Below are positions 26,655 through 51,092 of a DNA stretch of 64,000 nucleotides, piece by piece. The stretch comes from Wenzhouxiangella sp. AB-CW3. GTDB lineage: Bacteria > Pseudomonadota > Gammaproteobacteria > Xanthomonadales > Wenzhouxiangellaceae. A model generated the notes under the pieces. It did no database searches. It had not been told where the DNA came from and was given only the letters and a program-made list of their open reading frames with translations. Numbering within the stretch: the first letter of the stretch is position 1; the number at the start of each line of letters is the position of its first letter. The position numbers and the translations under genes were made by a program. The stretch lies in assembly GCF_014725735.1 (NCBI RefSeq), contig NZ_CP061368.1, positions 1,565,225-1,629,224 on the forward strand. The letters run 5' to 3'.

Positions 26655-26935
26655 GAAGAAGGCTTTCGCGTGCGAGATCCCGGATATCGCCTGCGGCGAT
26701 TCCGGGATGACGGTTGGTTGGGGTGGTGGCGCGCCCCCCTTGACGGGAAATGTGGCCGTTTTGCTCTGCCTCCTCCTCGTCGCCCGGGAAGCGCTGCCCA
26801 GCCCCTTTCGTCGCTTCGGAAGCGCTGCCGCTTCGTTTCGGCCCCCTTTCGTCGCCCGGGAGGCGTTGCCGCTTCGCTCCAGCCTCCTTTCGTCGCCCCG
26901 GACTTGATCCGGGGCCTCGCACGGTAGGCGCTGGC
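26655..26935. repeat. REP-like composite palindrome near ffs
   Basis: A type B variant with arms TCCCGGA/TCCGGGA around ATCGCC-TGC-GGCGAT lies at 26682-26708. A type C palindrome (CCCCGGA-CTTGA-TCCGGGG) lies near 26896-26916. They are joined by a GC-rich stretch with three imperfect GTCGCCCGGGA-like copies. It matches a unit of array 3 in design. No gene is seen in 26640-27004. Confidence 0.75.
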
Positions 26936-27004
26936 ACGGCTCTGAGAAAGGGCCCTTGGTCCACCAGGCTGTGCGATCTACATCGATATAAAGTGCACAG
27001 CCGG

Positions 27005-27190: not shown

Positions 27191-27222
27191 TTAAAAAACC
27201 CGCCACGGGGACGGGTTTTTTT
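27191..27222. terminator. Bidirectional terminator between ffs and tRNA-Ser
   Basis: AAAAAACCCG and CGGGTTTTTT flank a short GC stem-loop. T-runs occur on both strands, so it can end ffs (plus) and tRNA-Ser(TGA) (minus). Confidence 0.8.
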
Positions 27223-27227
27223 AATGA

Positions 27228-27317
27228 TGGCGGAGAGGGAGGGATTCGAACCCTCGAAGGGCGTCAGCCCTTGCCGGTTTTCAAGACCGGTGCATTCAAC
27301 CGCTCTGCCACCTCTCC
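27228..27317 (-). tRNA. tRNA-Ser (anticodon TGA)
   Basis: A 90-nt class II tRNA with a long variable arm (CAAGGGCTGACGCCCTT). The acceptor stem GGAGAGG pairs with CCTCTCC, the T-arm is GAGGG-TTCGAAT-CCCTC, the anticodon loop is CTTGAAA (TGA) and the CCA end is encoded. It ends against the terminator. Its acceptor and T-arms are identical to those of the two other serine tRNAs in the window. Confidence 0.96.
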
Positions 27318-27389
27318 GTGTTCTGGTTGTTGCCTCCAATTGTCGGAGGTTTTTCGGATCCTGTCGATCGGGCGGTCCTGTCGGACCGC

Positions 27390-27579
27390 GAGAGGGAGGG
27401 ATTGACTGCGCACCCTTCGGGTGCTTGCCCTCCGCTTCGCTCCGGGTCGCTCCGCTCGCTGTCGCGAGCTGCGCATCGAGCTCGCCGCGCATTTTGCGCG
27501 GCTCGGTTCAAACCCTCGAAGGGCGTCAGCCCTTGCCGGTTTTCAAGACCGGTGCATTCAACCGCTCTGCCACCTCTCC
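27390..27579 (-). pseudogene. tRNA-Ser(TGA) copy with 105-nt T-loop insert
   Basis: This duplicate keeps the tRNA body from the acceptor 5' strand to the T-loop, including the TGA anticodon and variable arm, with one C-to-T change in the T-loop (TTTGAA). At 27404-27508 a 105-nt GC-rich insert separates the T-loop from the 3' T-arm strand. The insert folds into several hairpins, for example GCCGCGC-AAAAT-GCGCGGC and GCACCC-GAA-GGGTGC. After CTCTC the CCA end is missing and a GCGGTCC/GGACCGC hairpin follows. The flank (about 75 bases) is duplicated with it. It should not give a normal tRNA. Confidence 0.9.
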
Positions 27580-27678
27580 GTGTTCTGGTTGTTGCCTCCA
27601 ATTGTCGGAGGTTTTTTGGATCCTGTCGATCGGGCGGTCCTGTCGGACCGCGAGAGTACTTATGTCCCGCTGAGGGAC

Positions 27679-27700
27679 AAAACCCCGCGCTTGGCGGGGC
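27679..27700 (-). terminator. Terminator of tRNA-Ser(GGA)
   Basis: On the minus strand GCCCCGCC-AAGC-GCGGGG is followed by TTTTG, beginning about 10 bases after the encoded CCA of the tRNA. Confidence 0.8.
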
Positions 27701-27708
27701 TTGTCGAT

Positions 27709-27800
<92 letters not shown>

Positions 27801-27871
27801 GTAAAACCTGGCTACATATTGTCTTTAGTCAACTTCAGCCGCCTTGCGGCGGGCGGTCCTTTTCGGACCGC

Positions 27872-28060
27872 GAGAGGGAGGGATTGACTGCGCACCCTTC
27901 GGGTGCTTGCCCTCCGCTTCGCTCCGGGTCGCTCCGCTCGCTGTTGCGAGCTGCGCATCGAGCTCGCCGCGCTGTGCGCGGCTCGGTTCGAACCCTCGGT
28001 ACGGGGTTACCGTACACTCGCTTTCCAGGCGAGCCCATTCGACCGCTCTGGCACCTCTCC
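27872..28060 (-). pseudogene. tRNA-Ser(GGA) copy with 103-nt T-loop insert
   Basis: The tRNA body, anticodon GGA and variable arm match the intact gene, and the T-loop is TTCGAA. A 103-nt insert (27886-27988) sits at the same T-loop position as in the TGA copy and is nearly identical to it, differing at the first hairpin (GCCGCGC-ACA-GCGCGGC) and a few bases. The acceptor 3' end stops at CTCTC with no CCA and is followed by a GCGGTCC-GAAAA-GGACCGC hairpin. The upstream flank differs from that of the intact gene, so promoter activity is doubtful. Confidence 0.9.
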
Positions 28061-28145
28061 GTAAACTTGGCATCTCATTATCTATCGGCTCCAGCCCATG
28101 AATCTACTCTAAGGGCGAGCCTCTCCGGTCGCATTCTTCAGCCTA

Positions 28146-28253: not shown

Positions 28254-29441
28254 TCCCACGTCGCCCCGGACTTGATCCGGGGCCTCGCACGGTAGGTGTT
28301 GGCACGGCTTCAGAGCAGGCCCTTCGCGTGCGAGATCCCGGATATCGCCTGCGGCGATTCCGGGATGACGGTGGCCGGGGGGCGGTGGCTTCCCCTCTCG
28401 TCTCCTGGGAGGCGGCGATTGGGGTGGCGGTTCGCTCCCCTCGCGTCGACCCGGGAACGTTGCCGCTTCGTCTCGCCCCCGTGTTGCCCCAGAGTCGCTA
28501 CTGCTTCGTTGCGCCCATCCCACGTCGCCCCGGACTTGATCCGGGGCCTCGCACGGTAGGTGTTGGCACGGCTTCAGAGTAAGGCTTTCATGTGCGAGAT
28601 CCCGGATATCGCCTGCGGCGATTCCGGGATGACGGTGGTCGGGGCGGTGGCTTCCCCTCTCGTCTCCTGGGAGGCGGCGATTGGGGTGGCGGTTCGCTCC
28701 CCTCGCGTCGACCCGGGAACGTTGCCGCTTCGTCTCGCCCCCGTGTTGCCCCAGAGTCGCTACTGCTTCGTTGCGCCCATCCCACGTCGCCCCGGACTTG
28801 ATCCGGGGCCTCGCACGGTAGGTGTTGGCACGGCTTCAGAGTAAGGCTTTCATGTGCGAGATCCCGGATATCGCCTGCGGCGATTCCGGGATGACGGTGG
28901 CCGGGGGGCGGTGGCTTCCCCTCTCGTCTCCTGGGAGGCGGCGATTGGGGTGGCGGTTCGCTCCCCTCGCGTCGACCCGGGAACGTTGCCGCTTCGTCTC
29001 GCCCCCGTGTTGCCCCAGAGTCGCTACTGCTTCGTTGCGCCCATCCCACGTCGCCCCGGACTTGATCCGGGGCCTCGCACGGTAGGTGTTGGCACGGCTT
29101 CAGAGCAGGCCCTTCGCGTGCGAGATCCCGGATATCGCCTGCGGCGATTCCGGGATGACGGTGGCCGGGGGGCGGTGGCTTCCCCTCTCGTCTCCTGGGA
29201 GGCGGCGATTGGGGTGGCGGTTCGCCCCCCTCGCGTCGACCCGGGAACGTTGCCGCTTCGTCTCGCCCCCGTGTTGCCCCAGAGTCGCTACTGCTTCGTT
29301 GCGCCCATCCCACGTCGCCCCGGACTTGATCCGGGGCCTCGCACGGTAGGTGTTGGCACGGCTTCAGAGTAAGGCTTTCATGTGCGAGATCCCGGATATC
29401 GCCTGCGGCGATTCCGGGATGACGGTGGTCGGGGCGGTGGT
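28254..29441. repeat. REP-like tandem array 3 (262-264-bp units)
   Basis: Units begin at GAGATCCCGG at 28332, 28596, 28858, 29122 and 29386, spaced 264, 262, 264 and 264. Each full unit contains the type B variant palindrome (TCCCGGA/TCCGGGA), a GC-rich middle (CTCGTCTCCTGGGAGGCGG and others), and the type C palindrome CCCCGGA-CTTGA-TCCGGGG. The link CCTCGCACGG to CGTGCGAG or TGTGCGAG recalls the arm pairs in arrays 1 and 2. Two junction variants (AGCAGGCCCTTCG and AGTAAGGCTTTCAT) occur in copies. Open frames of up to 241 codons here are repeat translations. dnaX starts about 90 bases beyond. Confidence 0.92.
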
Positions 29442-50333: not shown

Positions 50334-50439
50334 TGGCGGAGAGGGAGGGATTGCTGCGCCCGCTAAGGCGGGCTTGCCCTTCGGGCTGAAGTGCTGCGCA
50401 CTTCAGCGAGCTCACCGCGCTACGCGCGGTTCGGTTCGA
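50334..50439 (-). pseudogene. tRNA-Ser 3' end with 84-nt T-loop insert
   Basis: Only the last part of a tRNA-Ser remains: the 3' T-arm strand and acceptor with encoded CCA (CCCTCCCTCTCCGCCA), joined to the 84-nt insert (50353-50436) and a TTCGAACC end. Beyond it is unrelated sequence, so the tRNA body is lost. The insert has hairpins CTGAAGTGC-GCA-GCACTTCAG and GCCC-GAA-GGGC, and shares its ends with those in the full-length damaged copies. Confidence 0.8.
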
Positions 50440-50478
50440 ACCGGGGTTCTCATCCGTGATCCCCCTCACCACGATCAT

Positions 50479-50513: not shown

Positions 50514-50606
50514 TGGCGGAGAGGGAGGGATTCGAACCCTCGATACGGGTATAAGCCGTATACTCCCTTAGCAGGGGAGCGCCTTCAGCCACTCGGCCAC
50601 CTCTCC
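50514..50606 (-). tRNA. tRNA-Ser (anticodon GCT)
   Basis: A 93-nt class II tRNA: acceptor GGAGAGG/CCTCTCC, anticodon loop CTGCTAA (GCT), a long variable arm (TATACGGCTTATACCCGTATC), T-arm GAGGG-TTCGAAT-CCCTC, and encoded CCA. The minus-strand flank has TACAAT about 13 bases upstream as a possible -10 box. Confidence 0.96.
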
Positions 50607-50682
50607 GTCTAAACCGTATTGTAGCCGCCAAACGCTGGCGGTTTGTTTGTCCCTTTCGACCCGGGCGGCACTTGCGCGCCGC

Positions 50683-50849
50683 GAGAGGGAGGGATTGCTG
50701 CGCCCGCTTTCAGCGGGCTTGTCCTTCGGACTGAAGTGCTTCGCACTTCAGCGAGCTCGCCTGCGGCTCGGTTCGAACCCTCGATACGGGTATAAGCCGT
50801 ATACTCCCTTGAGCCAAGGGAGCGCCTTCAGCCACTCGGCCACCTCTCC
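50683..50849 (-). pseudogene. tRNA-Ser(GCT)-like copy 1 with 77-nt T-loop insert
   Basis: The acceptor 5' strand, D-arm, anticodon stem and variable arm match the intact gene, but the anticodon loop is 9 nt (TTGGCTCAA) instead of 7 (CTGCTAA). A 77-nt insert (50697-50773) interrupts the T-loop at the usual position; it contains CTGAAGTGC-GAA-GCACTTCAG, GTCC-GAA-GGAC and GCCCGCT-GAA-AGCGGGC. The 3' end stops at CTCTC followed by a GCGGC/GCCGC hairpin. The TACAAT promoter region of the intact gene is copied upstream. Confidence 0.9.
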
Positions 50850-50925
50850 GTCTAAACCGTATTGTAGCCGCCAAACGCTGGCGGTTTGTTTGTCCCTTTC
50901 GACCCGGGCGGCACTTGCGCGCCGC

Positions 50926-51092
50926 GAGAGGGAGGGATTGCTGCGCCCGCTTTCAGCGGGCTTGTCCTTCGGACTGAAGTGCTTCGCACTTCAGCGAGCT
51001 CGCCTGCGGCTCGGTTCGAACCCTCGATACGGGTATAAGCCGTATACTCCCTTGAGCCAAGGGAGAGCCTTCAGCCACTCGGCCACCTCTCC
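50926..51092 (-). pseudogene. tRNA-Ser(GCT)-like copy 2 with 77-nt T-loop insert
   Basis: The same as the preceding copy shifted by exactly 243 bases (insert 50940-51016). It carries the same 9-nt anticodon loop and a single further base change next to the anticodon stem (AGAGCC for AGCGCC on the plus strand), otherwise almost identical. The two are therefore recent tandem duplicates. The 189 bases from 51093 to 51281 hold the original upstream flank and no gene. Confidence 0.9.

Follow-up and report, generated by a model that had tools for sequence, protein, structure and literature searches.

RtT-type repeats in the T-loop of serine tRNA copies of Wenzhouxiangella sp. AB-CW3 and a capped, CCA-less form of interrupted tRNA

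The stretch of DNA analysed here (the window, 64,000 nucleotides) represents positions 1565225-1629224 of the genome of Wenzhouxiangella sp. AB-CW3, a single contig of 3,844,697 bases. According to the accessible part of the genome description (PMC7691419) the assembly was built from both nanopore and Illumina reads, and because both were used the repeats described below are unlikely to be assembly errors. Upstream of an intact tRNA-Ser(TGA) gene (27228-27317, called by ARAGORN; minus strand, as are all window features given below unless stated otherwise) lies a second copy of this tRNA, which starts at 27579 and runs as tRNA sequence as far as the T-loop. Its body (27516-27579) is a weak tRNA match (24.3 bits against RF00005, cut-off 29) that is identical to the intact gene up to the T-loop except beside the junction, where TTCGAACC is changed to TTCAAACC. 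There the T-loop is split by an insert, the core, of exactly 105 nt (27404-27508), followed by the T-stem and the 3' strand of the acceptor stem without CCA (27390-27403, identified from the sequence). In place of CCA the acceptor end carries a hairpin with a 7-bp stem, GCGGTCCGACAGGACCGC (read from 27389 to 27372), which we refer to as the cap. A reading of the sequence alone, the sequence-only reading, had described a T-loop-split tRNA-Ser(TGA) duplicate at 27390-27579 whose CCA is replaced by a hairpin, and both statements are borne out. When folded, the copy is more stable than shuffled sequences (z -4.15), with the acceptor stem, the cap and the core hairpins forming but no full cloverleaf. 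The gene for the bacterial small SRP RNA (RF00169; 27048-27144, plus strand) is located near this tRNA-Ser(TGA) array. A 262-264 bp repeat found five times in tandem ahead of dnaX (28254-29434), a 42-nt part of which recurs at 26900-26941, is unrelated to the core.

The junction had also been said to be common to other serine tRNA families, and indeed one tRNA-Ser(GGA) copy and two tandem tRNA-Ser(GCT) copies have both junction and build in common with the TGA copy. An intact tRNA-Ser(GGA) gene (27710-27800, ARAGORN) is found together with an interrupted GGA copy at 27872-28060, whose core occupies 27886-27988 (E 6.3e-10 with the model R1 introduced below) and whose cap hairpin at 27853-27871 has a 7-bp stem. 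The intact tRNA-Ser(GCT) gene (50514-50606, ARAGORN) is adjoined by one interrupted copy (50683-50849, core 50697-50773), and a second one (50926-51092, core 50940-51016) belongs to a 243-bp tandem unit, the R1 E-value being 5.8e-14 in either case. Their cap hairpins at 50665-50682, which includes one G-U pair, and at 50908-50925 comprise 7 pairs each (shuffle P 0.063 and 0.073, respectively). The anticodon arm of both GCT copies reads CTCCCTTGGCTCAAGGGAG (50804-50822 and 51047-51065), a longer perfect stem replacing the seven-base loop; the Ser-TGA copy of locus L302 has its anticodon arm closed in a similar manner.

A unit of another form, which was absent from the list of the sequence-only reading, lies downstream of tRNA-Ser(GCT). 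It consists, in this order, of a terminator-like hairpin, an inverted partial copy of the tRNA 3' half (50443-50470; assigned from the sequence and from the host-match test over units described below), a core (50353-50436, R1 E 2.1e-13) and, at its end, a copied tRNA-Ser 3' half with CCA that is identical over 19 nt (50334-50352). In general, the T-arm words GGTTCGA open the core, which at its other end abuts ATCC of the tRNA 3' half; the junction can be written TTCGA/ATCC and lies behind position 58 or so of the T-loop. GAGAG microhomology, which had been suggested as a source of the spare copy, is not the general cause of this junction because Arg and Gln copies are arranged alike with different letters there.

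What, then, is the inserted block? The lead was a unit of W. marina (L048), which gives the best, albeit weak, match within the family to the Rfam RtT model (27 bits, E 0.12). The RtT family model itself (RF00391, family cut-off 45 bits) gives no match in the window at the gathering threshold and none in 27200-28100 up to E 5, and a search of the whole AB-CW3 genome with strict filters reported no site, the AB-CW3 cores having diverged below the cut-off. R1, in turn, is a model that was made from 52 Wenzhouxiangellaceae inserts only, excluding E. coli, and holds six pairs. Its input went from 81 junction rows, at least one of which (L036_534) is a chance match, to 70 with a T-loop start and then to the 52 that were aligned after application of a length window and exclusion by hand. 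Since the words GGCAAGC and GC(G/T)CAG had been used for searching, their constancy in the resulting alignment A1 is by construction. Applied to a 1.7-kb stretch of E. coli, R1 recovers all four rtT units at full length (1-83 of 83) with 43.4, 41.7, 39.0 and 32.0 bits; the corresponding E-values of 1.4e-9 to 4.3e-7 apply to 1.7 kb, 41.1 bits being equivalent to E 6.8e-6 in a 2.6-Mb genome. In AB-CW3 the model finds 21 sites at E ≤1, of which 16 are full-length (E 1.5e-14 to 1.2e-9) and lie at eight tRNA loci, namely Ser-TGA, Ser-GGA, Ser-GCT, Ser-CGA, Arg-ACG, Arg-CCG, Thr-CGT and Gln-CTG. The core of the TGA copy is among them (genome positions 1592623-1592737, E 1.2e-9), and so many full-length sites exceed what chance would give, in line with the view of the sequence-only reading that random decay does not explain the copy.

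The rtT units at E. coli tyrT-tyrV contain the same parts in the same order as the Wenzhouxiangellaceae units. Both have the T-loop junction, the copied tRNA 3' half and the inverted segment, as seen in E. coli at rttR, and the core words GGTTCGA..CGAGCG..AGCGAG and CCCGAAGGGC are common to them. They differ in that the E. coli units are found at tRNA-Tyr, whereas those of the Wenzhouxiangellaceae are hosted by Ser, Thr, Arg, Gln and Glu tRNAs, and in that AB-CW3 has fused capped copies with a tRNA body, of which there are none in the E. coli stretch examined. It is thus well supported that the 105-nt block belongs, in diverged form, to the RtT type of repeat (RF00391). On the question of whether the block is part of a known element, which the sequence-only reading had raised as bearing against its own account, the outcome is divided: the block is related to this known Rfam family, but the RF00391 model gives no report here.

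Older work is said to have dealt with the tyrT repeats and an rtT RNA, and the repeat has been regarded as a peculiarity of a single E. coli locus. In the accessible parts of the open-access literature we found no account of RtT beside many tRNA genes but passing mentions of rtT in a covariation study (PMC7657543) and in a paper whose available text lists it as a 175-bp variable-number repeat of Salmonella (PMC2658671). Resemblance to another RNA was also considered: the sX4 small RNA (RF02223; available text of PMC11124144) matches intact as well as split tRNA-Ser copies weakly, with 14.6 to 40.7 of 70 bits. Its best match, however, is the intact gene, so that the score reflects the tRNA-Ser part rather than the insert, and identity with sX4 was rejected.

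By rules of score and distance, the 81 junction rows divide into 18 fused copies, 41 first downstream units and 22 that are neither. In the fused form a tRNA body abuts the core, as in 17 copies from Wenzhouxiangellaceae and in L142, while the downstream 3'-half unit, the commoner form in this family, has the layout of intact tRNA, inverted partial copy of its 3' half, core and copied 3' half. The two forms differ at their ends. CCA is present in 34 of the 41 downstream units, the remaining seven including five at Gln and one that is cut by a contig end. It is missing from every one of the 18 fused copies, the TGA and GGA copies of the window among them; in L225, a fused copy flagged for CCA, those letters lie inside the cap hairpin. 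A cap is found in 16 of 18 fused copies (all but L097 and L108) as a Watson-Crick hairpin of 6-7 pairs starting 13 or 14 bases past the junction, with a shuffle P of at most 0.04 for each of the 16; among the 41 downstream units there is no hairpin of at least 5 bp at this position. The letters of the cap vary while its pairing is kept: the stems on Ser are GCGGTCC, GCGGCCC, GCGGTTC, GCGGCTC, GCGATTC and TCGGCCC, CGAACCC is found on Arg, and the Arg copy of L142 has GTGGCGC. Beyond this census, 11 further fused copies are all capped (P 0.000 to 0.27 in a looser test), though not every cap reaches significance when taken singly. Five of these belong to AB-CW3 (two GCT, one CGA and two Arg-CCG copies) and six to other genomes of the class (L302, L303 three times, L306 and L351), a seventh, again at L351, being masked by N. 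L302, L303 and L351 represent one family and L306 another, so that, with the Wenzhouxiangellaceae, no fewer than three bacterial families have capped fused copies; L142, named Ectothiorhodospiraceae, may add a fourth. The RtT type, the commoner downstream form, and the missing CCA together with the hairpin as a regular feature were overlooked by the sequence-only reading.

These properties bear on the question of whether the core could be an intron of a working tRNA gene. In favour, the interrupted copies of the window retain the T-stem and most of the acceptor stem; however, the CCA end is absent from 18 of 18 fused copies, no intron family appears among the Rfam matches (window at gathering; 27200-28100 up to E 5) and the same core also occurs without a tRNA body, so we regard an intron as highly improbable. 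That the anticodon loop is shut into a longer stem in the GCT copies and in L302, and that about half of the tRNA body is missing from three fused copies (L039, L046 and L091), likewise counts against a working tRNA body.

The hairpins of the core were scored singly as alignment A1, which was made automatically, fails to line up the variable hairpins. In 51 of the 52 inserts hairpin C is 5-7 pairs long, with letters varying on both sides; its position 3 is G-C in 25, C-G in 20 and A-U in 6 inserts with one mismatch, and its position 4 is C-G in 37, G-C in 11, A-U in 3 and U-A in one. The mean stem length of 5.6 compares to 3.0 when the arms are re-dealt (highest of 500: 3.65). For hairpin B the mean is 5.4 as opposed to 3.6 in mononucleotide shuffles (highest of 200: 3.85). 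The proposal that the insert is a structured RNA that evolved from tRNA thus holds in part, in that hairpins are retained despite changes on both sides. Folds of entire copies vary: the downstream unit of L306 is more stable than shuffles (z -3.34), and a Gln fused copy folds no better than these (z 0.18). Two cores (L012 453-690 and L043 676-834) enclose an additional hairpin module, ACGCGC...CCTCC.

Two parts of the units were compared with their hosts. Measured against the average for other isotypes, the inverted segment has the better fit to the 3' half of its own host in 50 of the 58 units that come from other genomes or from E. coli, and in 34 of the 42 units of the family, the family set counting 42 instead of 41 units as the double-core fused row L038 was taken as downstream. 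In the family units the longest complement to the own 3' half is 7.8 nt, compared to 5.6 nt for other isotypes. A closing stem between the inverted segment and the copied 3' half is thereby supported in the family units; fused copies have the tRNA body at this place. The 5' side of the T-arm fits the own host better in 45 of 58 cases from other genomes and E. coli, and within the family it shows no host match (21 of 42).

How widely are these units distributed? The pattern GGGCAAGC-N(6-20)-GCGCAG-N(1-2)-AATCC has 72 matches in 26 of 43 family genomes, its reversed form none in the 43, and in samples of the class and the phylum AB-CW3 alone is matched (1 of 369 genomes; 1 of 398 with a stricter pattern). 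A scan of named genomes returned 34 stretches, mostly from records named Wenzhouxiangella or Wenzhouxiangellaceae. Six of these were examined: one (L128) is a split tRNA-Ser(GCT) from within the Wenzhouxiangellaceae, two are true copies from outside the family, and three (L126, L139 and L155) were judged to be chance matches as there is no tRNA in the stretch. The two true copies are a split tRNA-Arg of an Ectothiorhodospiraceae bacterium (L142) and a 3'-half unit following tRNA-Ser(GCT) in a metagenome-assembled genome labelled Neomarinimicrobiota (L138), and R1 finds seven sites (E 1.0e-6 to 0.0175) and one site in the respective genomes. In a class sample R1 is positive in 7 of 274 genomes including AB-CW3; at least five of the six others, L265 being the sixth, have the site next to a tRNA or to the 3' end of one. 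Two scans of virus contigs yielded 42 distinct stretches, two of which (L162 and L179) have a hairpin of at least 3 pairs at the site. L162 contains a 3' half like that of tRNA-Glu (18 of 19) and one R1 site (E 9.9e-8). In L179 (2700-2820) a core-like motif is placed between the inverted repeat CGGTCGGATT/AATCCGACCG in a stretch that contains no tRNA.

The Rfam model reaches further in the class, with RF00391 matches in 47 of 252 genomes at E 0.001 (17 of 252 above cut-off) and, among 14 control genomes, in E. coli only. These matches adjoin Gln, Ser, Tyr, Arg, Glu and Val tRNA genes. Of 77 loci with an RtT match, 63 contain a further copy of the neighbouring tRNA 3' end (up to 3 mismatches), at least two of these copies (L300 and L326) not being linked to RtT; six of the 14 loci that have no such copy have no tRNA in the stretch. 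Where 3'-end copy and core words occur together, the host is Ser in 25 cases, Gln in 20, Tyr in 4, Arg in 3 and Val in one. Glu units in the class are L356, in which one core word is missing, and L264.

Cores of different tRNA loci within a genome can be nearly identical. Within genome G029 a Thr-CGT downstream core and an Arg-CCG fused core agree to 97 %, and their identity stops at the T-loop words GGTTCGA and ATCC, beyond which the flanks are unrelated; a Ser-GGA downstream core and a Ser-TGA fused core of G010 agree to 99 %, and a Ser-GCT and an Arg-ACG core of G018 to 92 %. Near-identity bounded by the T-loop words implies that the core moves or is copied. Then again, median core identity is 0.69 within a genome at different tRNAs (38 pairs), 0.71 between genomes at the same tRNA (158) and 0.69 where both differ (1078), and as these medians fail to separate the classes, most copies are without a clear signal of movement.

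Does this make the core a true mobile element that inserts into T-loops, as the sequence-only reading had offered as one alternative, and that does so by means of its own or a borrowed recombinase? The alternative holds in part: near-identical cores at unrelated tRNA genes of one genome speak for it, as do the precise ends at TTCGA and ATCC, the head-to-tail pairs of cores joined by AA (L038, L082 and L089) and the true copies outside the Wenzhouxiangellaceae. However, neither a transposase nor an integrase was linked to the core, no larger gene-bearing version was seen, and simple insertion leaves the host-matched 3' half and the inverted segment of the downstream form unexplained. With respect to transposases, REP elements associated with RAYT (Y1) enzymes resemble the units in being short palindromic repeats, and AB-CW3 contains a RAYT-like gene with REP-like repeats; these differ in sequence and are not located at tRNA T-loops. 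None of the six Y1 transposase sites of the genome coincides with a motif match (flanks viewed in part), and an origin from RAYT/REP was rejected. The RAYT-like Y1 transposase gene at L057 (1200-3300) is accompanied by a long run of REP-like repeats of different sequence. Integrative elements that target tRNA genes by means of a tyrosine recombinase similarly repeat tRNA 3' ends at the element border, yet no integrase is tied to the RtT-type insert in the one island examined, that of W. marina. This island of about 7.6 kb (L242, 1176-8756), which contains a tyrosine-recombinase-like gene, resides in the anticodon loop of tRNA-Thr(TGT). It is the only integrase island met and accounts for the 7.6-kb gap between this tRNA and the 3'-half copies as mere displacement of the array, for which reason an integrase origin was dismissed. 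Altogether, a true mobile element appears unlikely.

A stronger competitor is a repeat that exists at the DNA level and has no role as RNA. Slippage and unequal exchange would multiply the units, template switching within hairpins would perfect the stems, those of the cap and of the closed anticodon arms as well, and the fused copies would be harmless pseudogenes. In accordance with this, stems are almost entirely of Watson-Crick type, G-U and A-C accounting for 32 and 16 of 1576 pairs, respectively; this near-purity arises partly by construction, as stems had been chosen for at least 4 Watson-Crick pairs, and the excess of G-U over A-C weakly favours an RNA strand. Tandem units are frequently identical, the anticodon arms closed to perfect stems in the GCT copies and L302 would be a product of the same process, and some tRNA bodies are truncated: L039, L046 and L091 retain about half of theirs, which indicates that the tRNA body is not everywhere under constraint. 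On the other hand, the cap goes with the fused form and sits at the acceptor end (16 of 18 versus 0 of 41), its letters differing between genomes, and in E. coli the unit is annotated as a small RNA, rttR. We give this explanation considerable weight but consider it somewhat less than an even prospect.

The explanation that we favour, and hold to be probable as a whole, combines an RtT-type core at the T-loop, a fused capped form and the following course of spread and capping. Units would multiply via unequal exchange between repeated tRNA stretches, and the core would be copied between tRNA loci through the T-loop words that are common to tRNAs. An interrupted copy would arise when a spare tRNA body joins a core at these words. 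Why would only CCA-less interrupted copies be seen? The long arm of serine tRNAs is read by SerRS. A fused copy still has the greater part of the acceptor stem and, where the tRNA is a serine one, the long arm as well; if it had CCA it would presumably be a dud substrate. We hypothesize that the cap shields the fused copy from addition of CCA, charging and 3' trimming, which would account for the fact that the copies seen lack CCA. A cap that blocks completion and charging would agree with the contrast between the two forms as judged from their sequences. Tentatively, and with a good deal less confidence, we suggest that RtT-type cores yield an overlooked class of RNA, namely tRNA bodies with a structured T-loop insert and a hairpin-sealed acceptor end. 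Such RNAs, formed on serine, arginine and glutamine tRNAs, would be encoded next to the intact gene in three or more gammaproteobacterial families and might serve as uncharged tRNA mimics that, for example, bind processing enzymes or synthetases to tune the supply of the neighbouring tRNA.

If these results hold, rtT is one branch of a tRNA-bound repeat which has spread over the Gammaproteobacteria and has the T-loop as its common meeting point, and loci and species with and without rtT would make the function of rtT RNA testable. Split tRNA copies in annotated genomes may represent an RtT element rather than decay. The capped interrupted copies, finally, would amount to a natural experiment on the signals that direct an RNA to addition of CCA and to charging.
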